This document shows positions 41,451 to 58,672 of a stretch of DNA of 64,000 nucleotides, piece after piece. The stretch covers positions 1 through 64,000 of the forward strand of contig NZ_FOHO01000012.1 of assembly GCF_900111675.1 (NCBI RefSeq), in the 5' to 3' direction. The position numbers and the translations under genes are program-made. Source of the DNA: Paracoccus homiensis (lineage in GTDB: Bacteria; Pseudomonadota; Alphaproteobacteria; Rhodobacterales; Rhodobacteraceae). Position 1 is the first letter of the stretch; each line of letters begins with the position of its first letter. The notes below the pieces were generated by a model. The model did not search any database. It was given only the letters and a program-made list of their open reading frames with translations, and was not told where the DNA came from.

Positions 41451-41903
41451 GGGATGTGCTCTCGTTGTAATGTGTTTTCGGGTCTTGGAGAATACAGCTA
41501 TAGCGCGAAGCGTTGCTAGAATGCAGGACCCGCAGTGGCAATGTCCACAGCGTCCCCCTTCGGGTCGCGCCCCCGGTTCCGGCCTTCAGCCTCCACCCGA
41601 GCTGATCGGAACGATGCGCGCGGCTGCGGCGTCCGGTTGAACGTCTCGTCCCGAGCCGTCCCCCCGAACCCCGGTCCTGCGCGCCCTGCCCCGACGATCT
41701 CGGCCCTGTCGGGCGGGACCGCTGACGCAGGCGCAAGGCGCAGAGCGATGCGCCGGGTGGTGATCGGGTACATAGGCTGCCGTTCGGCAATCGGTGGATG
41801 GCGGACAGCAAGCGGCAGGTGGCGAATTTCGCATTACGATTAACGCGGAACGCATAACGCGAAACCAACCGGGTTCGGTGGTCCGCTGTAGAAGGAACCC
41901 GGA
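41451..41903. other. Intergenic region before leader module A
   Basis: About 450 bp. It holds an AT-rich imperfect palindrome (41827-41864) and a block (about 41642-41700, TCTCGTCCCGAGCC ... CCCGGTCCTGC) similar to one at about 47131-47190. No gene supported. Confidence 0.5.
41827..41864. repeat. AT-rich imperfect palindrome with ACGCG repeats
   Basis: Arms TTTCGCATTACG and CATAACGCGAAA pair at 10 of 12 positions around a 14-bp centre containing ATTAACGCGG. It stands out from very GC-rich surroundings, 40 bp upstream of module A. Possibly a protein-binding site. Confidence 0.45.
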
Positions 41904-42284
41904 GACCCGCGCGCAGGCGCGGGCCATGATGGACTGAGGACGTGCCGGGGGATCGACACGGGCTGCGCCCGCGCTCACCCCCGCCCCGGCGATCCTTTCA
42001 TTTCCTTTTGTCCGCCACGCATCCCTGCGTCTGACGGTCAATGGCCAAGCGCCGCGCGATGCGCGTCGTCGTCCAGGCGGGCCGTGTCCTCGGCTTCGCC
42101 TGCGGGCCGCACCACCCCGCCTTCCCGAGCCTTGACAGTCAGCCCCAGGGCCGCGGGCAGGGCTGCGCCCTCCCCGCTTTGCCGTCCGAAAGGCATGGGG
42201 CCTTTCAGACAGCAAGCAGAGAGGTCTCGCCCATCGGCGGAAAGCAGGCACCAAACCCGCGCCGCCCGTCGCAAAAGAAGGACG
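41904..42284 (+). promoter_or_regulatory. Leader module copy A (381 bp)
   Basis: One of three near-identical non-coding modules (others at 47917-48298 and 56194-56575), ending directly at the DUF3768 start. It begins with the hairpin CCCGCGCGCAGGCGCGGG. Next comes a large nested GC hairpin, then ACGCATCCCTGCGT, a conserved 34-bp core (42082-42115), AGGGCTGCGCCCT, GAAAGGC...GCCTTTC, and a ribosome site AAGAAGGA. In this copy the outer arm of the nested hairpin reads GCCGGGGG and can pair with the adjacent CCCCGGC. Proposed promoter/leader of a conjugative leading-region operon. Confidence 0.75.
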
Positions 42285-42764
42285 ATGCCCATGTTGGCCG
42301 AAGATACCATTGCCGTTGATTTTTCCTGTACCGCTTGCGGAAAGATCATCACCGCCCTGACCGGGCCGAGCCATTGCCCGCACTGTCATGTCGCCGCGCC
42401 CGATCACGGTTTCCCGACCGCCGAGGCCGTGAAGATCGCGGAACAGAACGACCGCTTTCGGGCGGGGATGCTCACCGGGACGGCAAGCGATCTGCGTGGG
42501 CAGGTTGTCGTGACCGCTGCTGTCAACGGCATGGGCCGGGATTTCGTGACCGCCGCACTCATGGCGGTGGCCGGGGATACCGAATTCACCCCGGACAGTG
42601 ATCCTTACGGCGATCATGGTTTCGGCACCGTCACCGTGCTGACCGTCAAGCTGTTCTGGAAGATCGACCTTTACGACGAGGAACTGGTCTACGGCTCGCC
42701 TGACCCCGCGAACCCCGCCGCGACCCGGCGCGTCCTGACCATCATGTTCCCCTCCGATTACTGA
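42285..42764 (+). CDS. DUF3768 domain protein
   Basis: 159 residues. An N-terminal zinc-ribbon-like CTACGKIITALTGPSHCPHC precedes the DUF3768 domain: KIAEQNDRFRAGMLTGTASD, DSDPYGDHGFGTVTVLTVKL, FWKIDLYDEELVYGSPDPAN, and VLTIMFPSDY at the end. The family is found on plasmids near transfer regions; its function is unknown. First gene after leader module A. ATG 42285 is seven bases from AAGAAGGA. Confidence 0.85.
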   Translation: MPMLAEDTIAVDFSCTACGKIITALTGPSHCPHCHVAAPDHGFPTAEAVKIAEQNDRFRAGMLTGTASDLRGQVVVTAAVNGMGRDFVTAALMAVAGDTEFTPDSDPYGDHGFGTVTVLTVKLFWKIDLYDEELVYGSPDPANPAATRRVLTIMFPSDY

Positions 42765-42786
42765 ACCCCCGAACCCGGCCCGCTTC

Positions 42787-42951
42787 ATGCTCCGGGTGGG
42801 CCGGCCAAGCGCAACAGCAACCGGAAAGGAGGTGAGAACAATCAATCAATGGCTTGAGGCGCGGATCGCGGAAGCGTGGGCGCTCATCAGGAAGGGCGGT
42901 CACTCCGCCAAGATCGGCCACGCCTTCCTGAACCAGCACGGGGTCATGTGA
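42787..42951 (+). CDS. Possible 54-residue small protein
   Basis: MLRVGRPSATATGKEV followed by INQWLEARIAEAWALIRKGG and a short basic tail. The second half, from about 42832, looks protein-like (amphipathic helix) and could start from GTG 42832. It lies between DUF3768 and the ParB-like gene on the same strand, with AAAGGAGG inside it. Uncertain. Confidence 0.35.
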   Translation: MLRVGRPSATATGKEVRTINQWLEARIAEAWALIRKGGHSAKIGHAFLNQHGVM

Positions 42952-43024
42952 CCCCCTCGCCTCACCCCGTCAGGGGTGAGGCACCGATAACACAAAACCA
43001 CAGTCGCAAACAAGGAAAAGACCT

Positions 43025-44875
43025 ATGAAACAAGGTGCCATTACCACCGCCCCGATCCAGTATTTCCCGCTGTCCGCGCTCTATCTCTCAGACATGAACC
43101 CCCGGCAGGACGTCGATGCCGACCGCATCGACCAACTGGCCGACAGCATCGTGGCCGTGGGCCTGCTGCAGAACCTTGCGGGCCTTGCCGACGAGGCCGG
43201 ACATGTCGGGATCGTCGCGGGCGGTCGCCGCCTGCGCGCCCTGATCCGCGCTTTCGAGAAACACGCCGACCTGCTGGATCGCCGCCCGGAACTGGCGGAA
43301 ATCCCCGTCCGTCTGGCCCCCGACGAGGCCACCGCACGGGCATGGGCCAGCGTCGAGAACGCGGCCCGCGAGGATTTGCACCCCGCTGATGAAATCCGCG
43401 CCTATGGCCGCATGGCCGAGACGGGCAGCGATGTGCCTGCTATCGCCCGCGTGTTCGCCGTGACCGAGGCGCATGTTTATCGCCGCCTTGCGCTTGCGGC
43501 TTTGCCCGTACCGATCCTCGATGCGCTGAAAGCGGGCGAAATCACCCTTGAGGCCGCGAAATGCTTCACCGTGGCTCAGGACGAAGCCCTTGCACTCGAT
43601 GTGCTGGACCGGATGCGCGGTCAGGACGTGTCGGTCCACCGCCTGAAACAACTTCTGCAACCCGAGGCGATCCGCGACACCGACCGCCGTGCTGTCTATG
43701 TCGGGCTTGATGCCTACGAAGGCGCGGGCGGTCCGATCACCCGTGACCTTTTCGCGAACGAGGTCTTTCTGGGCGATAGCGCATTGCTGGATCAATTGTT
43801 CGCGGAAAAGCTGGCAATGGACGCCGAGGCCATCGGGCATGGCTGGAAATGGGTCGAGACCAGCACGGAGTCGTGGATCAGCTATGATTTGACCTCGAAG
43901 CTGGACCGCATCTATCGGGTCGAAGGCGATCTGACCGAGGAACAAGCCGAGCGTTACGACGAATTGTCGGAACTGGCCGCCGCCGAAGCTCTGGGCGAGG
44001 AAGGGCAGGCGGAACTGGATGCGCTGGAAACACTGGCACGGGGCGACTTCACCGATGCGCAGCGCGACCATGCCGGGCTGTTCGTATTCGTGGACAGTCG
44101 CGGCGAACTGACCGTGCAGGCGGCTTATATCCGGGCCGAGGATCGCGAGGCCGCGATTGCGGCAGAGGTGCTGACCGGACATGCCGCCCGCAGCCGCGAC
44201 GGCAGCACCGCCGATGCCGCTCCGAAATCGCCCATCAGCAACGCGCTGCGCGACGATCTGGGCTGGGTGGCGCAGGGCGCACGGCAGAATGCGGCGCTGC
44301 GCGATCCCGAACTGCTGATCGACCTGCTGGCCTATCAGTTGAGCCACGGCCTTGCCTGGCGCAAGCCGTTCGGGCTTGCGACAGAGGACGTGCCGAACTG
44401 GCCGACCACCGAGGCCGAGGGCTATGCGCTGGACGACCGCCTGACCGCCAATCCGCCGCGCGACATGTATGGCAAGGACCTTGCCAAATCCTTCCGCGCC
44501 TTCCGTTCCAAGGGAGCCGAGCATGTTCGGGGCGAACTGGTGCGGATGCTGGCCGCGCATTACCGGGGCGGGTCCGATGAACTGGCCGCGCTGATCGACA
44601 AGGAGACCAAGCCCGCGATCCGCGAGGTCTGGACGCCCACCGCCGCGAACTTCTTTTCCCGCGTTGGAGGCCCTTACCTCAACGACCTGTGGTGCGATCT
44701 GCTGGACCTCGCCGCCGATCACCCCACCGCCACCAGCTTCGCCAAGCTGAAAAAGGGCGAGAAGGCGGCAAAGCTGGAAACCCTGTTCAGTGATGCCGAC
44801 ACGCGCAAGGCGCTCGGGATCACCGAGGCGCAGGAGGCCCGCATCGCGGCATGGCTCCCCGAGGGCATGGCCTGA
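43025..44875 (+). CDS. ParB/RepB-like nuclease-domain plasmid protein (leading-region type)
   Basis: 616 residues. The ParB N-terminal fold is clear: LSALYLSDMNPRQDVDADRI, VGIVAGGRRLRALIRAF and AWASVENAAREDLHPADEIR, followed by an HTH (VPAIARVFAVTEAHVYRRLA). A long acidic middle and a conserved C-terminus (WTPTAANFFSRVGGPYLNDL) mark the large ParB-like proteins common in plasmid transfer regions, not the partition ParB. Role unknown; some relatives are nucleases or transcription regulators. Third gene after leader module A. Confidence 0.85.
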   Translation: MKQGAITTAPIQYFPLSALYLSDMNPRQDVDADRIDQLADSIVAVGLLQNLAGLADEAGHVGIVAGGRRLRALIRAFEKHADLLDRRPELAEIPVRLAPDEATARAWASVENAAREDLHPADEIRAYGRMAETGSDVPAIARVFAVTEAHVYRRLALAALPVPILDALKAGEITLEAAKCFTVAQDEALALDVLDRMRGQDVSVHRLKQLLQPEAIRDTDRRAVYVGLDAYEGAGGPITRDLFANEVFLGDSALLDQLFAEKLAMDAEAIGHGWKWVETSTESWISYDLTSKLDRIYRVEGDLTEEQAERYDELSELAAAEALGEEGQAELDALETLARGDFTDAQRDHAGLFVFVDSRGELTVQAAYIRAEDREAAIAAEVLTGHAARSRDGSTADAAPKSPISNALRDDLGWVAQGARQNAALRDPELLIDLLAYQLSHGLAWRKPFGLATEDVPNWPTTEAEGYALDDRLTANPPRDMYGKDLAKSFRAFRSKGAEHVRGELVRMLAAHYRGGSDELAALIDKETKPAIREVWTPTAANFFSRVGGPYLNDLWCDLLDLAADHPTATSFAKLKKGEKAAKLETLFSDADTRKALGITEAQEARIAAWLPEGMA

Positions 44876-44947
44876 TAACAGCGGGGCGCGCGCGCGAAGA
44901 TCGCGCGCCCCGGTCCCGGCAACACGGTTTCAGAAAGGACAGCACAG

Positions 44948-45181
44948 ATGGACTATGCACGGGAAAAATCATGGCACGGGCTTTCCTGCACCTGTGGCGG
45001 GGGCTACCGCGTCGGCCATGCCATCGGCTGCGAATACGCAACCAGCAGAGACAATCTCAACCAGTTGGACACCGACCTTGCCCGCGCCGTGGCGCAGGGC
45101 GATCAGGCGGAAGCCGCCGATCTGCGCCGGATCAAAGAAGGGATCGAGGCCGTCGCCGCACGATCCGCCACGGGAACCTGA
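44948..45181 (+). CDS. Small cysteine-containing hypothetical protein
   Basis: 77 residues. WHGLSCTCGGGYRVGHAIGC has a CxC and further Cys/His that could bind zinc. The rest is an amphipathic helix (DQAEAADLRRIKEGIEAVAA). GAAAGGACAGCAC gives a good ribosome site before ATG 44948. Part of the module A cluster, followed in three bases by the next gene. Confidence 0.6.
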   Translation: MDYAREKSWHGLSCTCGGGYRVGHAIGCEYATSRDNLNQLDTDLARAVAQGDQAEAADLRRIKEGIEAVAARSATGT

Positions 45182-45184
45182 TCA

Positions 45185-45661
45185 ATGCGCTTCATCAGAT
45201 CGGCCCGTCACCCGTTCACCGACACCGCCCGCAAGCGGGCCGCGCTGGCCCGCAGACAGACAGCCGACCGGGAGGCCCTGCCGCTCTTCGCCGCCGAGAT
45301 CGCGGCCCGTCAGAAAAGCCCCGACGATGTGATGCTGGCCCGCGCGAATGTCTGGGCGGCGCAGGAGGCCCGCAGCCGCCAGCGCCGCGCCGATCAGTGG
45401 CGGCGTGCCCGCCGCCTGATCGACGCCATGCCACCAAGGCAGCGCCGCCGGGACCGGGCCGCGTGGAACGGCGCACCCTATCCCGCCGATCCGGTCTATC
45501 TGCTGGATTTCCTGCACAGCCTTGAGGCCGGGCGCATCGCCCTCGATGCCCTGCCCTTCACCCCGCGCCGCGTGAACCTGCGCAGTCATGTAACCTCTGA
45601 AGAAATGGCGGCAGGCCGGACCTGCCGCCAGTCCAACAGGGAGGATTTTCAGTGTGGCTGA
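45185..45661 (+). CDS. Hypothetical basic protein
   Basis: 158 residues, arginine-rich and helical (ARKRAALARRQTADREALPL, RSRQRRADQWRRARRLIDAM). The C-terminal half has PYPADPVYLLDFLHSLEAGR. The composition suggests nucleic-acid binding. It directly follows the small cysteine protein and is last in the module A cluster, before the hairpin-terminator at 45727. No family named. Confidence 0.55.
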   Translation: MRFIRSARHPFTDTARKRAALARRQTADREALPLFAAEIAARQKSPDDVMLARANVWAAQEARSRQRRADQWRRARRLIDAMPPRQRRRDRAAWNGAPYPADPVYLLDFLHSLEAGRIALDALPFTPRRVNLRSHVTSEEMAAGRTCRQSNREDFQCG

Positions 45662-45726
45662 CTTTACGTCACTTCGCCATAGGGTTGTTGTAAGTTTCTT
45701 TCTTCGCCTCTCGCACTGACCCTTTT

Positions 45727-45780
45727 CCTTCTGCGACGAAGGTCAACTGGCCCCGCGATTTTCGTGGGGCGCTCTTTTTT
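45727..45780 (+). terminator. Palindromic 16-mer plus intrinsic terminator closing cluster A
   Basis: CCTTCTGCGACGAAGG (45727-45742, CCTTC/GAAGG stem) is followed by the stem GCCCCGCGA/TCGTGGGGC (45750-45770) and TTTTTT (45775-45780). The same 16-mer precedes the terminator of cluster B at 50438. Confidence 0.8.
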
Positions 45781-46212
45781 CCGCCTGCCGCTATCGTCCA
45801 CCCCTGATTGCCAGCCGATATGTGATATCCACTCTCTGCTGCTGTCGGGCCGAGTTGCCCTGCCCCCCTCCCCCGGCATCCGCCGGGAAAGGATCGCCAG
45901 GGCCGGCGCTTCGCGCGGAGCCGCGCCCCCGGCGCGGCGTCTCCACCCGCTCGTTGCACCAGGATGCACCGGCTTCGATTGTGCCCGGCTGTTAACCCGG
46001 CCGAACATCGGCCGGGGCCAGGCCGCACCACCCCGCACGGTCTGTGGATTATTCCACACGGGTCAAGGACGGCGCCGCGCCGAAGGGGCGCGGCTTGCAA
46101 GCGCCCGTGCCGGGCGTCCCTGACCTCGCGTGTCCGAATCCGCCGACCGCGCAGGGCTCTGATGAAGGTTTTCCACTGGAAGTGGACGGGAAACCTTCAA
46201 GCGCCAATTGCT
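45781..46212. other. Intergenic region, no gene seen
   Basis: About 430 GC-rich bases. It includes TGTGGATTATTCCACA (46043-46058), an inverted TGTGGA/TCCACA pair, and the 16-mer GGCCGCACCACCCCGC (about 46021-46036), which also occurs inside the leader modules. The open frames here lack family signals. Confidence 0.5.
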
Positions 46213-46977
46213 TTATGGCTCCTCCCACTTCTCTTGGTAGGTTTCGACAAGAAACGTGGCAATCGCCCCTGCCGTGTTGACCGCAAGGCTGGCGTGACGA
46301 GGTGAAGCCCTGATCGGCAATTTGCCCCCACGCCCGTGCGAGTCAGACAGGCGATTGCGCAACGTGCCGATGCCGTTCACAAGGTTCAATGCACCGCCCA
46401 AAATGGCCTTGATTGGTTCTTCGGTGTGCTGGTTCGGCGCAAGATTCAACAGCTTCGCAACAGTGGCATATAGCTTTGGCAGGTCGTCCTTATCTGAATA
46501 GGTTTCGCCACACTCGTCGAGGATACGCTTGATCATGGTTTCAAGGAGCGTTCGTGCCACCGTGATTGCCCCATCCGGATCGGTACTGCGGCGGGCAATA
46601 GCCTTGCCCCATACGGAATGAACGCCCGCCACGTCGAATGTCTCCAGGGCATCAGACGCCACCTTGTCGCCGGGTGCCGTGTTGCTGCCCTCAAGCCTAT
46701 CCATCAAGGGTGTGAAAGCCTTGTTGATGATCTCGCGCCGTCCGGCATAGGTTTCTGACGCCCGTTTAATATAGGGCCAGAAAGCGGACAGATTTCGGTA
46801 GGTTCTTACAAACGGTGGAAGCAGGTCGCAGAGAAAAGGATCAGCCATGAACTCGCGGCGGAGATGCTGATAAACACCGTCGTCTGCCGAACCACCTGTA
46901 GCCCGTTCAGTAAGCAGGCCTTCAAGCATTGTCGCCTGCTCAATTCGCGACGATGGAATCTCATTTTGTGAATACAT
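46213..46977 (-). CDS. Abortive-infection family protein (AbiC-terminal domain)
   Basis: 254 residues. The C-terminal half matches the abortive-infection C-terminal domain: TVARTLLETMIKRILDECGE, KAILGGALNLVNGIGTLRNR, LSDSHGRGGKLPIRASPRHA. The N-terminal half is helical and unassigned. Such proteins are linked to growth arrest on phage infection; this gene's activity is untested. It is minus-strand and less GC-rich than its plus-strand neighbours, so it looks like a separate defence insertion between clusters A and B. Confidence 0.8.
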   Translation of the reverse strand: MYSQNEIPSSRIEQATMLEGLLTERATGGSADDGVYQHLRREFMADPFLCDLLPPFVRTYRNLSAFWPYIKRASETYAGRREIINKAFTPLMDRLEGSNTAPGDKVASDALETFDVAGVHSVWGKAIARRSTDPDGAITVARTLLETMIKRILDECGETYSDKDDLPKLYATVAKLLNLAPNQHTEEPIKAILGGALNLVNGIGTLRNRLSDSHGRGGKLPIRASPRHASLAVNTAGAIATFLVETYQEKWEEP

Positions 46978-47641
46978 CTTCTACCGCCAGCTTCAGATCC
47001 TCCATCACCATATTCATTCCCTGTTGAGCGACAACGGCGCATCGCCGGCAGGCCGGCGACCGTGCCCCAGTCGCGCTGTCGCGCGACCCAAGCCCGCCAG
47101 GGCGATGCGGTCGGCTGCGGCGCCTGCGGTCTGTCTCGTCCCGAGCCAGATCCTCGATCGCCGGTCCTGACCGCCCTGCCCCGCCGGTCTTGGCCCATCC
47201 GGGTGACGGTCACTTGCGCGGGCCGGCCTTCAGCCCTCGCGCACAACCGGACCCTTGGGCAGGCTTTCGGCCCCTGCCAAACCCGGTCAGTCACAGTCCC
47301 GCACGCGAGCATTCTGCCGGGACAGCTGGCGGCGAGGGCGGTTTCGAGCGAAACTAGCGGGGTTGCGGTTGATCCGGACACGACATGCTCAGCCCCAGCC
47401 CTTGCCATCCTTCTCGCTGCCGGTTCGGCGATCACTTGGCTCCGTGGCCTGTTGGTCCTGTCCTGCAAGGGGCGTTTCTTCCAGATGAAACATGACAGGG
47501 CAGCGCGGCTGACGGCCTTCAACGACGAATTTCCCCTGGCCTGCGGCCATTCCTCGCGCCCCAAATTCGCCTTTGACAGCCGCTTATTCTGCCCTGTCCG
47601 CAGAGGTTTCATCGAAACGCCAGGCAGGAGAGGAAAATCCA
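46978..47641. other. Intergenic region, no convincing gene
   Basis: About 660 bp. Long frames on both strands read as arginine/proline-rich chance translations. A block near 47131-47190 resembles one at 41642-41700 upstream of module A. The last 70 bases lead to a good ribosome site (GGAGAGGAAAATCC) for the next gene. Confidence 0.5.
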
Positions 47642-47833
47642 ATGGCCACCGAAAACATGAAGCTCCGCGTCAAAACCGGCGAGAAGGACGGCAAGAACTT
47701 CTGGGACGACTGCGGGGTCGTCTTCATCAACCGCAACCCCGCCGGCGAGATCACCTCGATCCAGGTCCGCCACAACATGTTCCCCGGCGTCGATATGGTC
47801 GCCTTCCCGAAACGGGCGGACGACCAGGAGTAA
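47642..47833 (+). CDS. Small conserved plasmid protein
   Basis: 63 residues: MKLRVKTGEKDGKNFWDDCG, VVFINRNPAGEITSIQVRHN then MFPGVDMVAF. It belongs to a widespread family of short plasmid proteins with a single beta-rich fold and no assigned role. GGAGAGGAAAA precedes ATG 47642. It lies just upstream of leader module B, and a GGGGGTGGC...GCCGCCCC stem after it may end its transcript. Confidence 0.7.
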   Translation: MATENMKLRVKTGEKDGKNFWDDCGVVFINRNPAGEITSIQVRHNMFPGVDMVAFPKRADDQE

Positions 47834-47916
47834 CGGCAAGGGGGTGGCGACAGCCGCCCCTTCACCGTTCCATCCAGTCGCTACCGCGACAGCCTGCGGC
47901 CAGACAGGACAGGCGC

Positions 47917-48298
47917 GACCCGCGCGGAGGCGCGGGCCATGACGAGATGAGGACGTGGCGGGGGATCGACGCGGGCTGCGCCCGCGCTCACCCCCGCCCC
48001 GGCGACTTTTCCATTTGCTTTTGTCCGCCACGCATCCCTGCGTCTGACGGTCAATGCCCTAGCGCCGCGCGATGCGCGTCGTCGTCCAGACGGGCCGTGT
48101 CCTCGGCTGCGCCTGCGGGCCGCACCACCCCGCCTTCCCGAGCCTTGACAGTCAGCCCTAGGGCCGCGGGCAGGGCTACGCCCTCCCCGCTTTGCCGTCC
48201 GAAAGGCATGGGGCCTTTCGACGACAAGCAGAGAGGTCTCGCCCATCGGCGGAAAGGGGCAGAGACCTCGCCGCCCGTCGCAAGAGAAGGACGACACC
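47917..48298 (+). promoter_or_regulatory. Leader module copy B (382 bp)
   Basis: Second copy of the module, ending one base before ATG 48299. Order of hairpins and the 34-bp core (48095-48128) are as in copy A. The frame that is open in copies A and C is stopped here (ATG CCC TAG at 48054-48062), which argues that the module acts as DNA or RNA and not as protein. Ribosome site GAGAAGGACGA is kept. Confidence 0.75.
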
Positions 48299-48943
48299 AT
48301 GTTTCGGAACTTTGACGATCTGACCCGCTGCGAAGGCCGCTGGCTCAATCTCTGGGCCGCGTTCGACGTGACCGGCGAATACCTCGGCACATTCACCCTC
48401 GATGAATTGCGCGACAGGGCACAGGTGGAAGCCAAATGGGTCAGCTCTGTGCAATTCCGCAGTGCCGGTCAGCGCATGGACGAAAGCGCGCTGGCGCAGA
48501 AACTCAACGGCCTGCCATCCGGCACGACCGTGTTCGACTTTACCGGTTTTCGTGTTTCGCCCGTTCACCACACGGGCGGCACCCTCACGGGGGGAAATAT
48601 CGAAGTTTGCGACCCCGGACAGCACGTCCTCTGGTCAGTCTATGGCTTTCACCGCCAAGCGCAGGAATGGCAGATCGTTCACGACGCCCTACCGGGCGAG
48701 ATTGGCGAGGTTCTGGCCCGGATCGTGGACCTGACGGGCGAGCTGGTCGAATATCGCGACCTCAGCCATGCCTATGCCAACACCCGCCTGCCCGATCTGG
48801 TCGATCTTCTGGCGCAGCGGATTCATGACGAAATCCCCGGATACGATCACCCCGAGAGTTTCCGCGAGGATGATTTTGACGCGCACCCGCTGGCGGAATT
48901 GCGTGAGAGCATCGCCGATGCCCTCGATCTGCGGAGGGGCTGA
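48299..48943 (+). CDS. Hypothetical protein, first gene behind module B
   Basis: 214 residues, acidic. SGTTVFDFTGFRVSPVHHTG, VLWSVYGFHRQAQEWQIVHD and LVEYRDLSHAYANTRLPDLV are features without a family I can name. No signal peptide or membrane helix. It is separated by one base from the next gene, so both form an operon. Position suggests a leading-region function. Confidence 0.65.
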   Translation: MFRNFDDLTRCEGRWLNLWAAFDVTGEYLGTFTLDELRDRAQVEAKWVSSVQFRSAGQRMDESALAQKLNGLPSGTTVFDFTGFRVSPVHHTGGTLTGGNIEVCDPGQHVLWSVYGFHRQAQEWQIVHDALPGEIGEVLARIVDLTGELVEYRDLSHAYANTRLPDLVDLLAQRIHDEIPGYDHPESFREDDFDAHPLAELRESIADALDLRRG

Positions 48944-48944
48944 T

Positions 48945-49547
48945 ATGGACTGGCTCATCTATAACCAAACCCCCGTCTGCATCCGCGACGAGATCGCACG
49001 GCTTTGCACATGGGACAACGAGACAGGACGGGGTTTCCCCGTCCTCATCAGCCGCAAGGGGTCCGTCTGGTATGCCGCCGTGCGCAGCGAACCCGCGATC
49101 GGACAGCTGGTCAGCGGCACCGATGCCAGCGGCAGTTTCGAGACCGATGCCACGGGCGGCTATACGTTCGCCGCTGTCTTCCTGACACGCCGGGAAGGCG
49201 GCGGCTGGGGCTACAAGGACATGGACGAAACGGCTGGTCCGGTCGAATGCGAAGCCCCGGCAAAACTTCTGGACCTGCTGTCAACCACCACCCATGAATA
49301 TGCGCTGGACTGGCGGCAGTGGTGTCGCAGCCACGCGGCCCGCACCGGCCGTCGCCTGAAGGCGGGCGACGTGATCCGGTTCCCTGAACCGTTGAGGTTC
49401 AGCGATGGCAGCGAGGGGCAGACCTTCCGGGTCAACAAGGAACGCTTCGCCGGGGCGAACCGGGCGACCACCTTTTTCACCTGCATCGCGACAGGCGCAG
49501 ATTGCCGCATCAGCCGCGTCATGTCGCGTGACTGGACCCGCATCTGA
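48945..49547 (+). CDS. Hypothetical plasmid protein (possibly DUF6927-like)
   Basis: 200 residues: MDWLIYNQTPVCIRDEIARL, AVFLTRREGGGWGYKDMDET, and CEAPAKLLDLLSTTTHEYAL then WRQWCRSHAA. The C-terminal half (KAGDVIRFPEPLRFSDGSEG) looks like a small beta domain. I recall similar plasmid proteins under a DUF6927 label, but not with certainty. Second gene of cluster B. Confidence 0.65.
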   Translation: MDWLIYNQTPVCIRDEIARLCTWDNETGRGFPVLISRKGSVWYAAVRSEPAIGQLVSGTDASGSFETDATGGYTFAAVFLTRREGGGWGYKDMDETAGPVECEAPAKLLDLLSTTTHEYALDWRQWCRSHAARTGRRLKAGDVIRFPEPLRFSDGSEGQTFRVNKERFAGANRATTFFTCIATGADCRISRVMSRDWTRI

Positions 49548-49607
49548 GCCGCGCGCGCCGCGCCTGACGGCGCGGCGCCCTGCCCCCAACGCCACAAGGA
49601 CTTTGAC

Positions 49608-50393
49608 ATGGCCCATCAAGCCGTGACCGCATTCGTGCGCGCACTCGATCAGTTCGACCGCTCGAAGACCCGCACCGAGGTTTTCCGGATCTTCTGCGAA
49701 ATGGCCTTCTGCGCCCTGGCGAAGCGCGCCTCGCCCTTTGCCGATCAGCGCGACCGGCTGGAAGCGCAATTTTTGGAGTGCGTCCGCATGTTGCCGAACA
49801 AGGACGACGTGCGGCGCATGCCTGAAATGATGGCGATCGCCATCCAGACCATTGCCGCCGGGGGCGTCGATTTCTTCGGCCAGGCAGCGGCCGAGATCGG
49901 CGCACTCGATGCCCGCCTGGGCCAGTTCTTTTCCCCCTACGAGGTCAGCCGCATGATGGCCGAAATGTCCCTTGGTCATGTGTCGGCCCAAATCGAGGAA
50001 CAAGGCTTCATCACTATCTCGGAACCCGCCGCAGGCGCGGGCGGAATGGTGCTGGCCGTGGCCGATGTGATCGAGAAACAGGGTTTCGACCCGGCCCGGC
50101 ATATCTGGGTCGAGGCCGTGGAGCTGTCTCGCGCCACCTTTCACATGGCCTATGTCCAGATCGCCGCGCGAGGTGTCGCCGGACAAGTGATCAATGGCAA
50201 CAGCCTGTCACTCGAAACCTACGATCAGGCATTCACCCCGGCCGCGCCCGCATTTCATGCGATGAACGGCCATCCTTTCGCCAAACAGCAGGAAGCCGCG
50301 CGGCAGGCGGCCGAGGTCGAAGAGGCCGCGCAGGCGGGGCGCCGGGAGCTGCTGCGCAGTCCCGCGCCCGCGGCCGCGCGGGCTGTCTGGTAA
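49608..50393 (+). CDS. N6-adenine methylase-like protein lacking motif IV
   Basis: 261 residues. ISEPAAGAGGMVLAVADVIE is a good SAM-binding motif I of type I-like N6 methylases, and FFGQAAAEIGALDARLGQFF with SPYEVSRMMAEM is the usual preceding helical region. Where NPPY/F should stand, only AFHAMNGHPF is found, so catalysis is doubtful. It may bind SAM or DNA without methylating, or mimic a methylase. Third gene of cluster B, before its terminator. Confidence 0.75.
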   Translation: MAHQAVTAFVRALDQFDRSKTRTEVFRIFCEMAFCALAKRASPFADQRDRLEAQFLECVRMLPNKDDVRRMPEMMAIAIQTIAAGGVDFFGQAAAEIGALDARLGQFFSPYEVSRMMAEMSLGHVSAQIEEQGFITISEPAAGAGGMVLAVADVIEKQGFDPARHIWVEAVELSRATFHMAYVQIAARGVAGQVINGNSLSLETYDQAFTPAAPAFHAMNGHPFAKQQEAARQAAEVEEAAQAGRRELLRSPAPAAARAVW

Positions 50394-50437
50394 TAAGATT
50401 GACGGGGGTAAGCGAGTTCTCTACGCCCCCTACAGAT

Positions 50438-50485
50438 CCTTCTGCGACGAAGGTTTAACTGGGCCGCCCTCGGGCGGCCCCTTTC
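50438..50485 (+). terminator. Palindromic 16-mer plus terminator closing cluster B
   Basis: CCTTCTGCGACGAAGG (50438-50453) is followed by the stem GGGCCGCC/GGCGGCCC (50461-50480) and CTTTCTTT. Same 16-mer and a closely similar TTAACTGG/TCAACTGG spacer as at 45727. Confidence 0.75.
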
Positions 50486-50499
50486 TTTGCAGGCGCGAC

Positions 50500-50522
50500 T
50501 TATCCACAATTTCTGTGGATCG
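50500..50522. other. DnaA-box-like inverted pair
   Basis: TTATCCACA (50500-50508) equals the DnaA consensus. It is followed five bases on by TGTGGAT in opposite orientation. It lies just after the cluster B terminator. Could be a replication-linked site or chance. Confidence 0.4.
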
Positions 50523-50552
50523 TTCTGGGGAAAGACTGAACGGCAGAACGAC

Positions 50553-50615
50553 GCGAAGAGCCCAAACTACCCGTGACCATGCCGAAGTTTCGCTGTGGCT
50601 GCATTCGTCCGCTCC
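50553..50615 (+). repeat. Dispersed non-coding repeat, copy 3 (partial)
   Basis: CGCGAAGAGCCCAAACTAC is identical to copy 1 over 19 bases, then a more diverged AGTTTCGCTGTGGCTGCATT. Lies at the left edge of the copper cargo block. Confidence 0.5.
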
Positions 50616-50782
50616 GCGACATACTTGCCCGCGCTGCATGGCACCAAACGCCGACACTCATGTGGGACTGCGGTTGTCGGCTGCGTAAACCAGTGAGGCT
50701 GGAAGCACGGGAAGTGGTTCCATTTTGGGATTGACCGCGCCGCCGTCCGAACCCATTTTTGATGCTGCAATCGAGGGTCTTT

Positions 50783-51103
50783 ATGCGCCTAATCGCCGTT
50801 ATCTTCCTGACCAGCATTATGATGCTCGCTGCCCTTCCGCAAATGTCTGCGGCAGGGCCTGCGATGCATGACTGTGCGGCCTGCCCAGAAACGACGGTAC
50901 ATGCAGATCAGCAGGCCCCAGCGAACCAGCACCAAGCTGACGTGCCTTGCGCAGACATGGCGATCTGCGCATCCTATGCCCTTCTCGATACCAGTCAGCC
51001 TTTCCGTGACACTGATCTGCCACGCCTCCGTCATGCGTGGCCGGAGCCACGAAGTGGCACGACGATCAGTCTGTCTTTGGACCTCCCGCCTCCTCGCGCC
51101 TGA
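50783..51103 (+). CDS. Small secreted protein of the copper block
   Basis: 106 residues with a signal peptide (LIAVIFLTSIMMLAALPQMS). The mature part has MHDCAACPETTVHAD, HQADVPCADMAICASYALLD, a Cys/His/Met-rich composition that could bind copper. No named family. It precedes the cytochrome gene by 87 bp on the same strand. A metal-binding or chaperone role is inference from composition and neighbours. Confidence 0.55.
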   Translation: MRLIAVIFLTSIMMLAALPQMSAAGPAMHDCAACPETTVHADQQAPANQHQADVPCADMAICASYALLDTSQPFRDTDLPRLRHAWPEPRSGTTISLSLDLPPPRA

Positions 51104-51190
51104 GCCAGCTTGAGTTGAATCTGGGTCGATTTCGGTCGACCCATCATCAGAGCGCGCGGCCCGCAAAGCCGTGCAGGCCAGGATACTATC

Positions 51191-51631
51191 ATGAACAAAT
51201 TCACCCTCGCCGGGGCCGCGGTTCTTGCCGTGGCGCTCGGTATCTTTGCTGTTACCCGCTTCTCCGAGCAAACCGCCCCCGTACAGGAAACCACGGCGCC
51301 AGAGGATGGCGCGGCCATGGTGGCCATCACGCTGCCCGATACGCTGTCGCCCGAGGGGACGATGGGGAAGCGGGCTTTCGATGCGGTCTGCGCTGATTGT
51401 CATGGCGACAATGCCGCCGGGAAAATGGGGATCGCCCCGCCGCTGATCCACAAGATCTACGAACCGTCGCATCATGGCGACATGGCCTTCCAGATGGCGG
51501 CTGCGAACGGCGTACGCGCACATCATTGGACATTCGGAGACATGCCGCCGCAGCCCGGGGTGACCCGTGCGGATGTGACGTCGATCATTGCCTACATCCG
51601 CGAAATACAGCGCGCCAATGGGATCAACTGA
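51191..51631 (+). CDS. Cytochrome c (class I-like), exported
   Basis: 146 residues. N-terminal signal/anchor FTLAGAAVLAVALGIFAV, one heme site CADCH in KRAFDAVCADCHGDNAAGKM, and a distal Met in WTFGDMPPQPGVT. The C-terminal helix VTSIIAYIREIQRANGI is typical. Periplasmic electron carrier. It is immediately followed by the multicopper oxidase gene (stop and start one base apart), so it may accept or deliver electrons to it. Confidence 0.88.
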   Translation: MNKFTLAGAAVLAVALGIFAVTRFSEQTAPVQETTAPEDGAAMVAITLPDTLSPEGTMGKRAFDAVCADCHGDNAAGKMGIAPPLIHKIYEPSHHGDMAFQMAAANGVRAHHWTFGDMPPQPGVTRADVTSIIAYIREIQRANGIN

Positions 51632-51632
51632 C

Positions 51633-53012
51633 ATGAAGATGACACGACGCGTTTTTTGCGCAGGTCTCGCCACCGTGCCACTGATGCGCCCTGCACAGGC
51701 TCAGGATATGCCGCTTCTAACAGCCAGGTCAGCCACGGTGCAGCTTGCCCCGGATGGCTATCCGGCGACGCCGGTCTGGAGCTACGACGGGACGATCCCT
51801 GGCCCGGTCATCCGCGCCGCTCAGGGCAGCCGGTTGCAGCGACGGTTGGTGAACACGCTGGAGGTTCCGACCTCGGTTCACTGGCATGGCATCCGTATCG
51901 ACAACGCCATGGATGGTGTCGCGGGGCTGACGCAGGACGCGGTGCCGCCCGGTGAGTTCTTCGACTACGCCTACGATCTGCCCGATGCGGGAACCTACTG
52001 GTATCACGCCCATACAAATTCGATGGAACAGGTCGCGCGGGGTCTTTCCGGAGCCCTGATCATCGAAGAGGCCACACCGCCGGATGTGGACCGGGACGAG
52101 GTCCTGATGATCGACGATTGGTTGCTGGACCCCGATACCGGCCTGTTTGTCGATGACTTCGCAGCGCCAATGGTGCGCAGCCACGGAGGCCGGATCGGCA
52201 ACCTTGTGGGGGTGAACGGGCGCTACAATTACAGGCTTTCGGCCCGGCAAAACGAGCGGCTGCGGCTGCGGCTGATCAACTCGGCCAATGCCCAGATCTT
52301 CGGTCTGAAGCTGGAAGGGCTGACCGGCTGGACGGTGTCTCTCGACGGCATGCCTCTCGACACGCCGGAACCGGTGACGGATACGCTTGTGCTTGCACCG
52401 GCACAGCGCATGGATCTGATCGTCGATGTCACCGCCGAGGAAAGGGAAACCGCAGGACTTCTCTTTGCCGCAGCGGATGATACCTGGCGCGTACTGGCTG
52501 AAGTTTCTGTCGAAGGACGTGCCGCCTCAGTTCCGCGCGGTGCGCCTCAGCCCTTGCCACGCAATCCACGCATGGAGGTTGTGGGCGTCGACGCCGCGCC
52601 TGTCCTTGAGATGCCGCTGCAGGGCGGTGCGATGCGCGGCCTGGAAAGCGCAGCCTTCAACGGGCAGAAACTGACCTGGCAGGAGTTGGTGCAACAAGGA
52701 CAGTTCTGGGCGCTGGCCGGACAGGCCGGGCTGGGAGAGGCGCCGTTTGCCACGCTTTCGCGCGGCGAGACGGCCCGCATCCGCATAACCAATGACACGA
52801 TTTTTCCGCACGCGATGCACCTGCACGGGATGCATTTCAGGACGCGTAAGGAAGACGGAAGCCTTGGTCCTCTACGGGACACGGTTCTCGTCATGCCCAA
52901 CGAGACGACGGAGATCGCCTTCGTTGCGGACAATCCGGGAAAGTGGCTGCTGCATTGCCACATGCTGGGGCACGCAGCGTCGGGCATGACGAACTGGATC
53001 ATGGTCAGATGA
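51633..53012 (+). CDS. Multicopper oxidase
   Basis: 459 residues with a Tat-like signal (TRRVFCAGLATV, A-x-A cut near PAQAQ). The copper ligands are all visible: TSVHWHGIRIDN (about 82), YWYHAHTNSMEQ (about 123), HAMHLHGMHF (about 392) and WLLHCHMLGHAASGM (about 441), which include the type 1, 2 and 3 sites. Related to CopA/CueO-type periplasmic copper oxidases that detoxify Cu(I). Its stop overlaps the next cytochrome gene. Confidence 0.92.
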   Translation: MKMTRRVFCAGLATVPLMRPAQAQDMPLLTARSATVQLAPDGYPATPVWSYDGTIPGPVIRAAQGSRLQRRLVNTLEVPTSVHWHGIRIDNAMDGVAGLTQDAVPPGEFFDYAYDLPDAGTYWYHAHTNSMEQVARGLSGALIIEEATPPDVDRDEVLMIDDWLLDPDTGLFVDDFAAPMVRSHGGRIGNLVGVNGRYNYRLSARQNERLRLRLINSANAQIFGLKLEGLTGWTVSLDGMPLDTPEPVTDTLVLAPAQRMDLIVDVTAEERETAGLLFAAADDTWRVLAEVSVEGRAASVPRGAPQPLPRNPRMEVVGVDAAPVLEMPLQGGAMRGLESAAFNGQKLTWQELVQQGQFWALAGQAGLGEAPFATLSRGETARIRITNDTIFPHAMHLHGMHFRTRKEDGSLGPLRDTVLVMPNETTEIAFVADNPGKWLLHCHMLGHAASGMTNWIMVR

Positions 53013-53413
53013 AGGGCCTGATCGCACTTGCAGCAACTCTTGCAAGCTGGGCGCAGGCCGTTGCGGCAGAGGAAGGCATGGATGGCGCAGCTCTGTATCA
53101 GCAGAACTGCGCATCCTGCCATGGGTCGGAGCTTCAGGGGCAGCCGGATTGGCGCAGCCCCGGTCCCGACGGCCGCCTTCCCGCGCCACCCCATGATGCA
53201 ACGGGCCACACTTGGCATCATGGCGACGACATCCTGTTCCGCATCACGCGGGACGGGACTGCCTCGGTGGTCGGCGGGGGATATGAAAGTGACATGCCCG
53301 GCTTTGGCGACAGCCTGAGGGATGCGGAAATTCGAGCGATCCTCGACTACATCAAATCCACCTGGCCCGAGCGCGAACGCGCCAATCAACGTGAAAGAAC
53401 TCAGCAGAAATAG
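53009..53413 (+). CDS. Second exported cytochrome c
   Basis: 134 residues. Signal peptide GLIALAATLASWAQAVAAEE, one heme site CASCH in LYQQNCASCHGSELQGQPD, and distal ligand region SDMPGFGDSLRDAEIRAILD. Start ATG 53009 overlaps the oxidase stop by four bases. Its pairing with the oxidase suggests an electron partner in the periplasm. Confidence 0.88.
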   Translation: MKGLIALAATLASWAQAVAAEEGMDGAALYQQNCASCHGSELQGQPDWRSPGPDGRLPAPPHDATGHTWHHGDDILFRITRDGTASVVGGGYESDMPGFGDSLRDAEIRAILDYIKSTWPERERANQRERTQQK

Positions 53414-53490
53414 GCCGAGAAAAGTCAACTTCTAGGGAACATCCACCCACTGGAAGGTTGTTATTCCCTTAAGCGCACTCGGAGGTGACG

Positions 53491-54315
53491 ATGGCCTATT
53501 CCCGCTTTTTCCTGATGATTGCCGTATCTACGGTCCTGATGTTCGGGTTGATGTACCTGAACACGTATCTGATCAGCCATATCTTCTGGTCAGAAACACG
53601 CGCCTATATGGCAATCGTCATGGGGGCGGTTATGGCCTTCGTCATGCTGGCCTTCATGCTCGGCATGTACAAGAACCGCACGCTCAATATCGCGATATTC
53701 GCGGGCTCCATCATCGGTTTCGCAGGGGCGCTCTGGCTGGTGCGCAGTCAGGTGACGGTGCAGGACCGCGCCTACATGCGGGCGATGATCCCATACCATT
53801 CAATCGCCATCATGACTTCGTCGCGCGCGGAAATCACCGATCCCAGGGTGCGCACTTTGGCCGATGACATCATCTACGCCCAGGATAAGGAAATCGCGGA
53901 GATGCGCTATCTGATCGCGGACATTTCGGCGAATGGAGAGGCGACCCCCGCCGGGGATGCACCGGTAGCCGAACTGAAGCCCGCTCAGGACGCCCTGTCC
54001 AGCGAGGTCGTTTCCAAGGTCGATCCGGAGTTCCTGACGCAGGCAGATATCGCCCAGGTCTTCCCGGATGGGGCCGCGTGCAGCTCCACCTACACTGAAA
54101 CGAGCCCGCCCGTGTTCGTGTCTGGAAACGGCACCGCCTTGGTCAAGATCAGCGGGGATCTTGTCCGCCTCGATGGCGCGGGAGGAAGCTTCAAGGCTGA
54201 CCCGATCACGATTCAGGTGCGCGACAGGGAAGATGATGGTCTTCAGGACTTCGTCATCAGCGCGGGCCCTGACTACGAAGCCGGTTTCCGCGGCCAGTAC
54301 CGCTGCGAGAATTGA
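53491..54315 (+). CDS. DUF305-containing membrane protein
   Basis: About 274 residues. Three hydrophobic helices (FLMIAVSTVLMFGLMYLNTY, MAIVMGAVMAFVMLAFMLGM, and IAIFAGSIIGFAGALWLV) precede a DUF305-type segment, RAYMRAMIPYHSIAIMTSSR, in which His in the I-P-Y-H context is the family marker. The C-terminus is a periplasmic domain. DUF305 proteins recur in copper loci. ATG 53491 follows GGAGGTGACG. Part of the copper block. Confidence 0.85.
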   Translation: MAYSRFFLMIAVSTVLMFGLMYLNTYLISHIFWSETRAYMAIVMGAVMAFVMLAFMLGMYKNRTLNIAIFAGSIIGFAGALWLVRSQVTVQDRAYMRAMIPYHSIAIMTSSRAEITDPRVRTLADDIIYAQDKEIAEMRYLIADISANGEATPAGDAPVAELKPAQDALSSEVVSKVDPEFLTQADIAQVFPDGAACSSTYTETSPPVFVSGNGTALVKISGDLVRLDGAGGSFKADPITIQVRDREDDGLQDFVISAGPDYEAGFRGQYRCEN

Positions 54316-54320
54316 GGAAA

Positions 54321-55088
54321 ATGATCATGCCAAACGATACCGAGAAAACCGCCGTTCTATACCGCATGGTCATGCCTGAGCACACATGCCCCTTTGGTCT
54401 GAAATCCAAAGATTTGCTGGAGCGCAAAGGCTACGTCGTCGAAGATCACCACCTGAAGACCAAGGACGAGACCGAGGCTTTCAAGCGCGAGCATGACGTC
54501 AAGACGACGCCGCAGACCTTCATCGACGGGGAACGGATCGGGGGTCATGACGATCTGCGCATCTTCCTCGGGATCGACCCGCCGAAGGAAGAACAGAGCG
54601 ACACGACCTACCGCCCTGTTATCGCGATCTTTTCGGTATGTGCCCTGCTGGCGCTTGGGCTGGCGTGGCACCAATACGGGACGATCCTGACCTGGCAGAG
54701 CTTCCAGTGGTTCATCTCGCTGTCCATGACCGTGCTTGCGATCCAGAAGCTTCAGGACGTCGAGCAGTTCTCGACCATGTTCCTGAACTACGACCTGCTG
54801 GCGAAACGTTGGGTGCCCTACGGCAAGGCCTATCCCTACGGCGAGGCGCTGGCTGGCATCCTGATGACTGCGGGCGTCCTGACATGGATTTCCGCGCCCG
54901 TTGCCCTGTTCATCGGCACCATTGGGGCGGTCAGCGTGTTCAAGGCTGTCTACATCGACAAGCGCGAATTGAAATGTGCCTGCGTCGGCGGGAACTCCAA
55001 CGTGCCGCTTGGCTTTATTTCCCTGACCGAGAACCTGATGATGATCGTGATGGGCCTCTGGATGGGTTTGCACGCCCTCGGGGGCTGA
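54321..55088 (+). CDS. Glutaredoxin-MauE/DoxX-like fusion protein
   Basis: 255 residues. Residues 1-85 form a glutaredoxin fold: MVMPEHTCPFGLKSKDLLER with a monothiol-like CPFG centre, and VKTTPQTFIDGERIGGHDDL. Residues 95-255 are a four-helix MauE/DoxX-like domain whose C-terminal CACVGGNSNVPLGFISLTEN is a MauE hallmark. Likely a membrane redox protein for thiol or metal-site maturation. ATG 54321 follows GAGGAAA. End of the plus-strand copper block. Confidence 0.85.
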   Translation: MIMPNDTEKTAVLYRMVMPEHTCPFGLKSKDLLERKGYVVEDHHLKTKDETEAFKREHDVKTTPQTFIDGERIGGHDDLRIFLGIDPPKEEQSDTTYRPVIAIFSVCALLALGLAWHQYGTILTWQSFQWFISLSMTVLAIQKLQDVEQFSTMFLNYDLLAKRWVPYGKAYPYGEALAGILMTAGVLTWISAPVALFIGTIGAVSVFKAVYIDKRELKCACVGGNSNVPLGFISLTENLMMIVMGLWMGLHALGG

Positions 55089-55098
55089 GATGAGAAAC

Positions 55099-55121
55099 GG
55101 GGGCGTCGTCGTAACGCCCCC
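55099..55121. terminator. Hairpin between convergent genes
   Basis: GGGGGCGT and ACGCCCCC arms around a 7-base loop, between the glutaredoxin-MauE gene and the converging copD remnant. Probably bidirectional termination. Confidence 0.6.
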
Positions 55122-55135
55122 GGTGTCTTTCCGGC

Positions 55136-55977
55136 TTAGCCGACGTGCTCGGGCGCGACCGTGGATGTGAAGGTGGCAGTGACCAGCAGGATCACGAGGA
55201 AGGCCGCGACCTCCCACCGTATCGACGCCCTCAGCGCGCCAGCGTTTCCGGTCTCGACCAGGGCCGTGGTCAGCCGAAGCTTGTTCAACCCGCCGAGGCC
55301 GAGAAGCAGGGCCACGACGGCCAGTTTCAGCGTCAGGAACTGCCTTCAGGGATGAGTCAGGACCGCGATCGGATGTTCTGCCAAGATCAGCAGGATCACG
55401 ACGCCTGCTGCAACAAGCAGCCCGACCATGACCAGCGCCGCCTGACCGAACCGCTCGACAGTCCGGACCGCCGCCTCGTTGCCGCTGCCAGCCATGTCAT
55501 GGAGCGGATAGAAGCCCCCGATCCAGAAGCTCGCAGCAAGGATATGGATGACGAAAAGCGTCGAAAGCGCCAACCTCGGATCTCCGGTTGCATCACCACG
55601 CAGCGCGAAACTGATGGCGACAAAAACAACACCAAGGAACACTACAGGTCGTGTCCAACTGCGATTGAGCGCGATGGTCGCGATGCCGAGTCGGCCAAGT
55701 ATGTCGGCCTCAACCGACAGCCCAGGTGGGCTAAATAGGGCGATCTGAAGCATCATCGGATCAAGCGCGCCAACAACGCCCCCGTAATAGAAAGCCGCCC
55801 GCAGGGGAATGTTCAGCGTGCTGAAGACAATGCCGACGATGGCTGACCATGCTGCACCGTCAGGAGCTGGAGATTGATGACGGAGCCCGCCGCAAGCAGG
55901 ACACTGACATACATCCCAGCCTTGACGAGGATCGAGGCGATCTGCAGCGGTTCCAGTGCGGCAAGAACTCCGCCCAT
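55136..55977 (-). pseudogene. copD: copD-like copper membrane protein, broken
   Basis: Read on the minus strand from ATG 55977: GGVLAALEPLQIASILVKAG and MYVSVLLAAGSVINLQLL, then the frame must shift (about 55850-55875) to continue PDGAAWSAIVGIVFS, TLFVIHILAASFWIGGFYPL and RFGQAALVMVGLLVAAGVVI. A TGA at about 55347 interrupts before QFLTLKLAVVALLLGLGGLN and NKLRLTTAL to the final stop at 55136. CopD proteins have this multi-helix layout without breaks. Two lesions suggest decay, unless sequencing errors explain them. Confidence 0.7.
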
Positions 55978-56193
55978 GATCAATTCGCGATCTTGAACCC
56001 GAAGCTGCCATTGATCGGGTGATCGAGCCCTCCAGTTGCTGCAAACTCACGACTATTTTTGAAGCGGTAAGTAAGGTCGACATCCGCTATTGCACATGGC
56101 CAACGCTCTACCCCTCGCAGGCCACGGTCGCAGCGAACGGCAGGAAGGTCTCGCATAGCAGAATGGCGTAATGCCGCCCAACAGCAATTCGGC

Positions 56194-56575
56194 GACCCGC
56201 GCGCAGGCGCGGGCCAAGATGATGACAAGGACGTGGCGGGGGATCGACGCGGGCTGCGCCCGCGCTCACCCCCGCCCCGACGATCTTTTCGTTTCCTTTT
56301 GTCCGCCACGCATCCCTGCGTCTGACGGTCAATGGCCAAGCGCCGCGCGATGCGCGTCGTCGTCCAGGCGGGCCGTGTCCTTGGCTTCGCCTGCGGGCCG
56401 CACCACCCCGCCTTCCCGAGCCTTGACAGTCAGCCCCAGGGCCGCGGGCAGGGCTGCGCCCTCCCCGCTTTGCCGTCCGAAAGGCATGGGGCCTTTCGAC
56501 GACAAGCAGAGAGGTCTCGCCCATCGGCGGAAAGCAGGCACCAAGCCCGCGCCGCCCGTCGCAAAGGAGGCCGAC
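56194..56575 (+). promoter_or_regulatory. Leader module copy C (382 bp)
   Basis: Third copy, ending at ATG 56576 of ardC with GCAAAGGAGG as ribosome site. The nested hairpin is best seen here: GGCGGGGG (56235-56242) with CCCCCGCC (56269-56276), and inside it GCGGGC with GCCCGC. The 34-bp core is 56373-56406. Similarity to copies A and B starts and ends at the same points. Confidence 0.75.
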
Positions 56576-58077: not shown

Positions 58078-58288
58078 GCGATTTGCGGCTTGGGCCTGAT
58101 TGACCAGGAGGGCAGCGACCGGCGAGCCGGCCACTGCCCTCCTGGTCCGGCGCTGTCCGCGCGGAGCCGCTGCGCGGCAAATTGCGACGAGGCTTCGCCC
58201 GTCACGTCATTTCCTGGCTCTAAAGGACGTCAGGTTTTCCACAGATTTTCTCGCGTCCCTTCGCTCTCTGGGGGCGCGTCCCGCTCGT

Positions 58289-58672
58289 TCATCTGCGAGG
58301 TCCTTCCGCCTGGCGGCGTTTGGGCTGGGTAACCTGCCGTCGTCTAGAGCCAGTTCGGGCCGCCGCGAGCGCTGCCTTGCGGTCCTCGTCGGACAGGTCA
58401 GCGAGTAACAGCTGCGCCAGCCGGATCTTCCCCCGGCGACCGAGATCGCGATGCGCAAGGCGCCTTCCACACGCCAAGAACCAAGCCCGCAGTTCCTCAT
58501 AGGTTGCCATCGCGGCCCAGAACTCTGCATCGTCGTCGATCTCGCCGAACGGCATCAGCGGTGCATCCGCGCGCGCTTCCTCCAGAACGGCGGACATGAC
58601 CATCTCCGCGTCATGCCAGTCGCAGGCTGCGATCGCCTCCAGCAGATTCCGAAACCGTCCCAGACGGGACAT
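58289..58672 (-). CDS. Hypothetical protein divergent from the mobilization operon
   Basis: 127 residues: MSRLGRFRNLLEAIAACDWH, DAEMVMSAVLEEARADAPLM, then EFWAAMATYEELRAWFLACG and an arginine-rich tail. I choose ATG 58672 because GGCAGGAGG precedes it; ATG 58723 gives 17 more residues. No family recognised. It is the only minus-strand gene of the cluster next to oriT, and an inverted copy of the leader-module core lies upstream of it. Confidence 0.6.
   Translation of the reverse strand: MSRLGRFRNLLEAIAACDWHDAEMVMSAVLEEARADAPLMPFGEIDDDAEFWAAMATYEELRAWFLACGRRLAHRDLGRRGKIRLAQLLLADLSDEDRKAALAAARTGSRRRQVTQPKRRQAEGPRR

Follow-up and report, generated by a model that had tools for sequence, protein, structure and literature searches.

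Gene organization of the locus

The DNA analyzed here (64,000 nucleotides of Paracoccus homiensis, hereafter the window) belongs to a 106,709-bp contig and carries three modules of 381–382 bp on the same strand (Table 1), which a previous sequence-only reading had described as near-identical leaders. This description holds: the copies are 92–96 % identical and each has a start codon at its end. According to alignment and repeat finder, module 3 shares 96 % identity with module 1 over 375 nt, and module 2 is 92 % identical to both across almost its full length. The likeness begins sharply at GACCCGCGCG and stops inside the ribosome site, and the flanks outside the modules displayed no relatedness between copies upon alignment. 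The ATG directly following the module belongs to the genes for the DUF3768 protein (with a further ATG at 42291), for a protein without family match and for ArdC, respectively. Since unrelated genes thus follow near-identical modules, the earlier claim that the non-coding DNA itself is kept is supported. A coding function of the modules was rejected, the best frame being open in at most 41 of 109 elements; for the same reason the open frames running through the window's modules are attributed to GC content.

Table 1 Position of modules, predicted structures and genes in the window
Feature	Position	Strand	Remarks
UmuC/ImpB-like Y-family polymerase	39996–41198	+	Island border; family scan
Module 1	41904–42284	+	Leader of DUF3768 and ParB-like genes; core 42082–42113
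Inner hairpin of module 1 (predicted)	42037–42137	−	Arm GTCAA (42037–42041, plus-strand letters), core, arm TTGACA (42132–42137)
DUF3768 protein	42285–42764	+	Family scan
ParB-like protein	43025–44875	+	Family scan
Module 2	47917–48298	+	Leader of genes for protein without family match, DUF6927 protein and N6-methylase-like protein; core 48095–48126
Protein without Pfam or NCBIfam family match	48299–48943	+	Family scans
DUF6927 protein	48945–49547	+	Scanned frame started at 48768; no NCBIfam match
N-6 DNA methylase-like protein	49608–50393	+	Family scan
Module 3	56194–56575	+	Leader of ardC; core 56373–56404
ArdC anti-restriction protein	56576–57469	+	Family scan
Fourth core copy	58843–58871	−	Core alone, inverted, with own inverted arms; adjoins mobC
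Putative nic site	59074–59082	−	Minus strand, ACTTCCTG^C
MobC-like relaxosome protein	59081–59695	+	Family scan
VirD2/MobA-type relaxase	59692–62082	+	Family scan

The gene for the UmuC-like polymerase lies ahead of the first module, and those for MobC and the VirD2/MobA-type relaxase lie beyond the last one. This layout resembles the leading-region anti-defence islands outlined in PMC11541004, and the genes behind the modules are probably those which a plasmid brings first into a new cell. The leading region also contains an Abi_C (abortive infection) gene on the opposite strand (46213–46977). Multicopper-oxidase-like as well as redox and membrane genes are located between modules 2 and 3 (51588–55088, translations judged by eye) and may have entered the leading region as cargo.

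Conserved core and predicted hairpin

Searching 72,556 plasmid records with the module (blastn) yielded 217 places in 146 records; in 18 of these, a single place covered ≥80 % of the module. Many of the short matches fell on a single 40-nt stretch, from which the core CCGTGTCCTCGSCTNCGSCTGCGGGCCGCACC was recognized. This 32-nt core is nearly invariant, occupies the centre of the module and is flanked by covarying inverted arms. In module 1 an outer helix lengthens the hairpin on both sides, and equivalent structures are found in modules 2 and 3.

Arm sequences vary among families, yet remain complementary. In the Rhodobacterales type, to which the window's modules belong (17 elements, three of them from the window), 22 of 45 predicted pairs display compensatory change on both sides. 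Cells with double changes numbered 85 as compared to 25 in shuffled alignments (a value that no shuffle out of 500 reached), and 95.9 % of the cells were paired versus 82.4 % after shuffling and 33–46 % for slid structures; here the structure had been taken from the very alignment under test, and the shuffles ignore relatedness, both of which favour the structure, and the paired-cell test counts 46 pairs, i.e., the 45 predicted ones and a meaningless one (columns 201–209). Against shuffles, the arm match attains a modest z-score, with a median of 3.6 and values above 3 in 67/109 elements. The stem of the central triloop hairpin alternates between GGC/GCC and GCC/GGC, and the triloop reads GNA on the minus strand in 53 of 56 elements, with all four bases occurring at N. 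Hairpins of the form C(GNA)G are exceptionally stable in DNA. Judged from sequence comparison, selection maintains the ability of the minus strand (relative to the following gene) to form a long imperfect hairpin, with the core as its apex and a C(GNA)G mini-hairpin within the core.

Besides this structure, a GC-rich hairpin occupies the initial 20 nt of each module (41904–41925 and equivalents), and two more perfect GNA-triloop hairpins per module are present on the minus strand (at 41964, 42164 and equivalents). Across the window, GNA/TNC loops account for 23 of 125 such triloop hairpins.

Strand asymmetry of folding

Before counting, elements near locus ends and the window duplicates (L001–L004 and L009) were left out, and redundant elements were dropped at >88 % identity (folding set) or >93 % (arm-family set). 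With DNA parameters, the minus strand, i.e., the template of the downstream gene, was the more stable one in 55 of the 56 non-redundant elements; the mean gap in its favour amounted to 6.7 kcal/mol, as compared to 0.3 (sd 4.2) for random stretches of the loci. Blanking the core did not alter this proportion (again 55/56), and RNA parameters still favoured the minus strand in 53/56. To allow for the relatedness of the sequences, arms were also grouped into families, 17 of 19 of which agreed on the more stable minus strand. For the window's modules the template strand was more stable in 21/21 folding windows (overlapping and thus not independent). The same overlap applies to the positive control, both Frpo regions of the F plasmid (11/12 each), and to two CUP repeats of R46 as negative control (6/9 and 5/9). 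Stretches upstream of viral ardC genes, a further negative control, favoured the template strand in 7/21.

A strand-neutral comparison of the arms revealed 438 transitions leaving G.T pairs on the minus strand versus 209 on the plus strand, a direction held in only 13 of the 19 arm families. In the fold of the beta-/gammaproteobacterial type (29 elements), one-sided G.U cells outnumbered A.C cells 74 to 9, the fold having been computed on the minus strand, which favours G.U.

These observations bear on the possibility that the element acts on the plus strand, as the structured leader of an mRNA (attenuator or riboregulator). Its position upstream of start codons and its covarying structure would agree with such a role, but the plus strand folds worse even with RNA parameters, the strand-neutral arm comparison favours the minus strand, and Rfam returned no match to the element over the gathering threshold, so that a known RNA family was rejected as the module's identity. 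We consider an mRNA leader very unlikely. The sequence-only reading had proposed a leader carrying a common signal; with respect to its nature, the folding data point to a strand-specific structure of single-stranded DNA rather than to an ordinary double-stranded leader.

Distribution and placement

A degenerate pattern scan detected the core in at least 119 stretches of genomes of named species from the alpha-, beta- and gammaproteobacteria, among the matches listed being Rhodobacterales, Burkholderiales, Pseudomonas, Stenotrophomonas, Marinobacter and Rhodocyclaceae. Further copies ahead of leading-region-type genes in Rhodobacterales plasmids, as anticipated from the window alone, were indeed found, but the element is not confined to this order. 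Eight viral contigs match the core pattern; the pattern scan with one exact core yielded no viral contig. Among 398 genomes drawn from the phylum, eight possess the core (own genome included), one of these being doubtful (G310, 3 mismatches) and another (G404, 2 mismatches) having matching arms. Family-wide, 51 of 295 genomes scored at E ≤ 1e-3, with two candidates scored per genome and many weak ones probably due to chance. The 3.87-Mb genome of P. homiensis itself contains the core at four places only, all on the window's contig (29-nt pattern, ≤3 mismatches), and no occurrence of the reversed core pattern.

At 176 core places, a number that includes window duplicates, the closest reference protein within 1200 nt downstream was determined. 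Such a gene was present at 111 places, namely for DUF932 (65), ArdC (10), DUF3768 (8), ParB (7), DUF3560 (3) or other references (18), and at 65 places none was found. Core and reference gene share the strand in 111/111 cases, with no opposite-strand reference gene within 1200 nt of the 176 places. The core-to-gene distance is 157–208 nt in 81 of the 111 places (range 50–647). Thus, the copies occupy a regular position relative to gene starts rather than being placed independently of them. The ardC gene as carrier of the core was rejected, since none of 22 viral ardC loci contains it. In the Rhodobacterales and Roseobacter types, likeness mostly stays between about −100 and +300 relative to the core, whereas in the beta/gamma type conservation runs further, into the gene. 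Two loci (L048 and L192) represent a further arm type, in which GTCAA/TTGACA arms directly adjoin the core and the other arm parts differ.

That the copies of a single plasmid are so alike could also be explained by a transposable or recombination module spreading without any function of its own. Such a module would not be expected to show compensatory evolution of its arms or regular placement before genes. As to terminal repeats of a transposable element, which the sequence-only reading had named as evidence against its view, a repeat finder covering inverted repeats of at least 40 nt detected none in the region 36000–64000. A function-free mobile module is therefore extremely unlikely.

Polarity and the transferred strand

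The relaxase gene is typically located in the lagging region, as outlined in PMC11541004. A relaxase match was obtained in sixteen records, own genome included, two of these matches scoring below the family cut-off. The sixteen records contain 34 places with the module or core, of which 29 share the strand of the relaxase gene and 29 are situated no more than 20 kb from it; the copies are thus not mainly found away from transfer regions. The five opposite-strand places, one in the window and one in each of four plasmids, all represent the copy closest to mobC, which stands before a small gene that reads away from oriT. In three records without relaxase match, all places (3, 5 and 6) are on one strand, whereas a fourth such record has one inverted place out of four.

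Just before mobC, the motif A[CT]TTCCTGC is present on the minus strand of the window and of four related plasmids, two of which are mutual close relatives. It resembles the nic consensus of this relaxase class; a similar motif also occurs once on the plus strand in the window. Taken together, the polarity of the copies, the nic-like motif and the usual lagging-region position of the relaxase gene suggest that the minus strand is transferred first. Based on gene order and this consensus, it most likely enters the recipient ahead of the plus strand and serves as template of the leading genes.

The inverted fourth core copy, which the sequence-only reading had not listed, is at odds with a role in transcribing the transferred strand. 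It precedes a minus-strand stretch (about 58100–58603) resembling a small protein of other plasmids and reads away from the putative oriT. This stretch matches the small protein of p1PARARS4 as two pieces one base out of step and may therefore be frameshifted. The inverted core nearest mobC is also found in L039, L040, L042, L043 and L008, ahead of a small gene. In the plasmids examined, the inverted core comes after a gene pair for an AAA ATPase and a hypothetical protein, which is absent from the window.

A transferred strand that folds around an invariant core would also suit a primase or primosome site, and the Frpo element of F is itself reported to prime as well. The element might accordingly be a single-strand initiation site for second-strand synthesis only, with gene expression starting from elsewhere. 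Priming could occur anywhere on the strand, but the core mostly ends at the narrow distance before the gene given above; we regard a mere priming site as quite unlikely.

Comparison with known establishment leaders

Repeated leaders before establishment genes are already known, i.e., Frpo, CUP and EGeRS (background on these and on surveys in PMC11541004, PMC9849209, PMC12826799, PMC8708921, PMC7736820 and PMC3490853). According to this literature, bench work on single-stranded promoters has dealt with those of F and ColIb-P9, and one recent survey based its similarity search for such promoters on 5 known and 13 candidate sequences. A search of open-access full texts (with subscription literature outside its scope) returned no paper describing the present element in its title or at the start of its abstract. 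Among these leaders, the present element stands out by its own conserved core and its wide host range.

The Frpo stem-loop is described to restore −10 and −35 boxes (PMC9849209). Two repeats of the F plasmid (541–543 nt, 90 % identical) were taken as Frpo1/2, since their position agrees with the published description. The gene cluster behind one contains a DUF932 gene, that behind the other ssb, a ParB-family gene and psiB. Frpo1/Frpo2 (ssi; F and ColIb-P9 relatives) and the modules are alike in being located in the leading region and repeated ahead of operons; in F, moreover, the genes likewise point toward oriT, the template strand folds better, and DUF932 and ParB-family genes occur in the clusters behind. 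By contrast, no meaningful sequence similarity exists between the two (matches of 10–13 nt, E ≥ 1.4), the F region lacks the core, and the new element differs by hosts including alpha- and betaproteobacteria and by a −10 box that is not evident in the window's type.

The CUP leaders of IncN plasmids (R46/pKM101; ~425–457 nt) are similarly repeated before anti-restriction and other leading-region genes. The two R46 repeats taken as CUP copies folded without strand asymmetry, unlike the modules, and their sole match to the latter is a GC-rich inverted stretch of 21 nt at the hairpin of the initial 20 nt (E 6e-4 with modules 1 and 3 and 0.03 with module 2). In the pLS20 family, EGeRS are reported as conserved upstream DNA marking the establishment regulon, which resembles the situation at the modules; the authors of that report exclude single-stranded promoters because the transferred strand there is the non-template strand, whereas at the modules it is probably the template.

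Both systems offer a model for the element as a double-stranded promoter or operator under a plasmid regulator. The layout of repeated leaders before anti-restriction operons is the same, and inverted repeats can serve as operators. Conversely, strand-specific folding and the GNA loop would be unexpected for a duplex site, asymmetry is missing from the two CUP copies, and a scan covering the sigma-70 type detected no promoter-like pair in the window's modules; the region 41700–57000 has 2 candidates versus 2.8 expected, and a double-stranded sigma-70 promoter was rejected. We judge the duplex reading unlikely, albeit with an appreciable residual probability, also in view of the beta/gamma type discussed below.

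Proposed function and promoter-like boxes

The best reading of the element is that of a promoter or priming element in single-stranded DNA, Frpo-like in its working and unrelated to Frpo in sequence. To this view, in which the modules are leading-region control elements working as single-stranded DNA, like Frpo of the F plasmid, we give somewhat more credence than doubt. The minus strand would enter the recipient first and, once folded, present a duplex start site to the RNA polymerase of the recipient or to a priming enzyme. Transcription of the anti-restriction, ParB-like, methylase and similar genes would then precede duplex formation, second-strand synthesis perhaps being primed by the same folded element. 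Upon conversion to the duplex, the hairpin would dissolve and the genes would be turned down.

A −35/−10-like pair was detected in the beta/gamma type only: the 3' arm of its folded minus strand contains TTGA-N18-TAC[AG]GT with variable spacer in 29/29 aligned elements, in 22 of them in the form TTGAC. In duplex DNA this pair points away from the following gene; a −35/−10-like pair upstream of the gene would thus exist in the folded strand only. There, the 3' arm would be the non-template side, and transcription would proceed along the other arm into the gene. The window's type has an invariant TTGAC and no recognizable −10 at the right distance from it. In the Roseobacter type, TATTTT/TAATAG-like (−10-like) hexamers are present, and a −35 was not found. 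The promoter step is hence deduced, whereas the sequence comparisons demonstrate the strand-specific structure itself.

Alternatively, the boxes of the beta/gamma type could be those of an ordinary divergent promoter, since a divergent AAA ATPase gene is present in 5 of 7 annotated records (four share the same protein). However, the upstream DNA of beta/gamma loci is otherwise mostly unrelated between loci, which argues against a divergent promoter. Rough GC3-based ORF calling at 28 loci suggested a divergent gene at 6, a same-strand gene at 11 and none at 11, at least L006 being misjudged.

Returning to the single-stranded reading, one may tentatively speculate, with more reserve than conviction, that the elements constitute a class of promoters or primers activated in single-stranded DNA, unrelated by descent to Frpo, the 32-nt apex of which would be read by a dedicated factor and which would drive establishment genes across alpha-, beta- and gammaproteobacterial conjugative plasmids and integrated elements. 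This factor could be the recipient RNA polymerase, a primase or a co-transferred protein.

The leaders suggest that establishment genes can become active before the incoming plasmid turns double-stranded, and the core family renders the generality of such early expression during conjugation directly testable. In addition, the invariant core provides a handle for finding leading regions, and hence anti-defence genes, in plasmids that similarity searches would miss. As a lead, the promoters of the phage N4 virion RNA polymerase resemble the module apex, since they are likewise template-strand hairpins of single-stranded DNA with a three-base loop.
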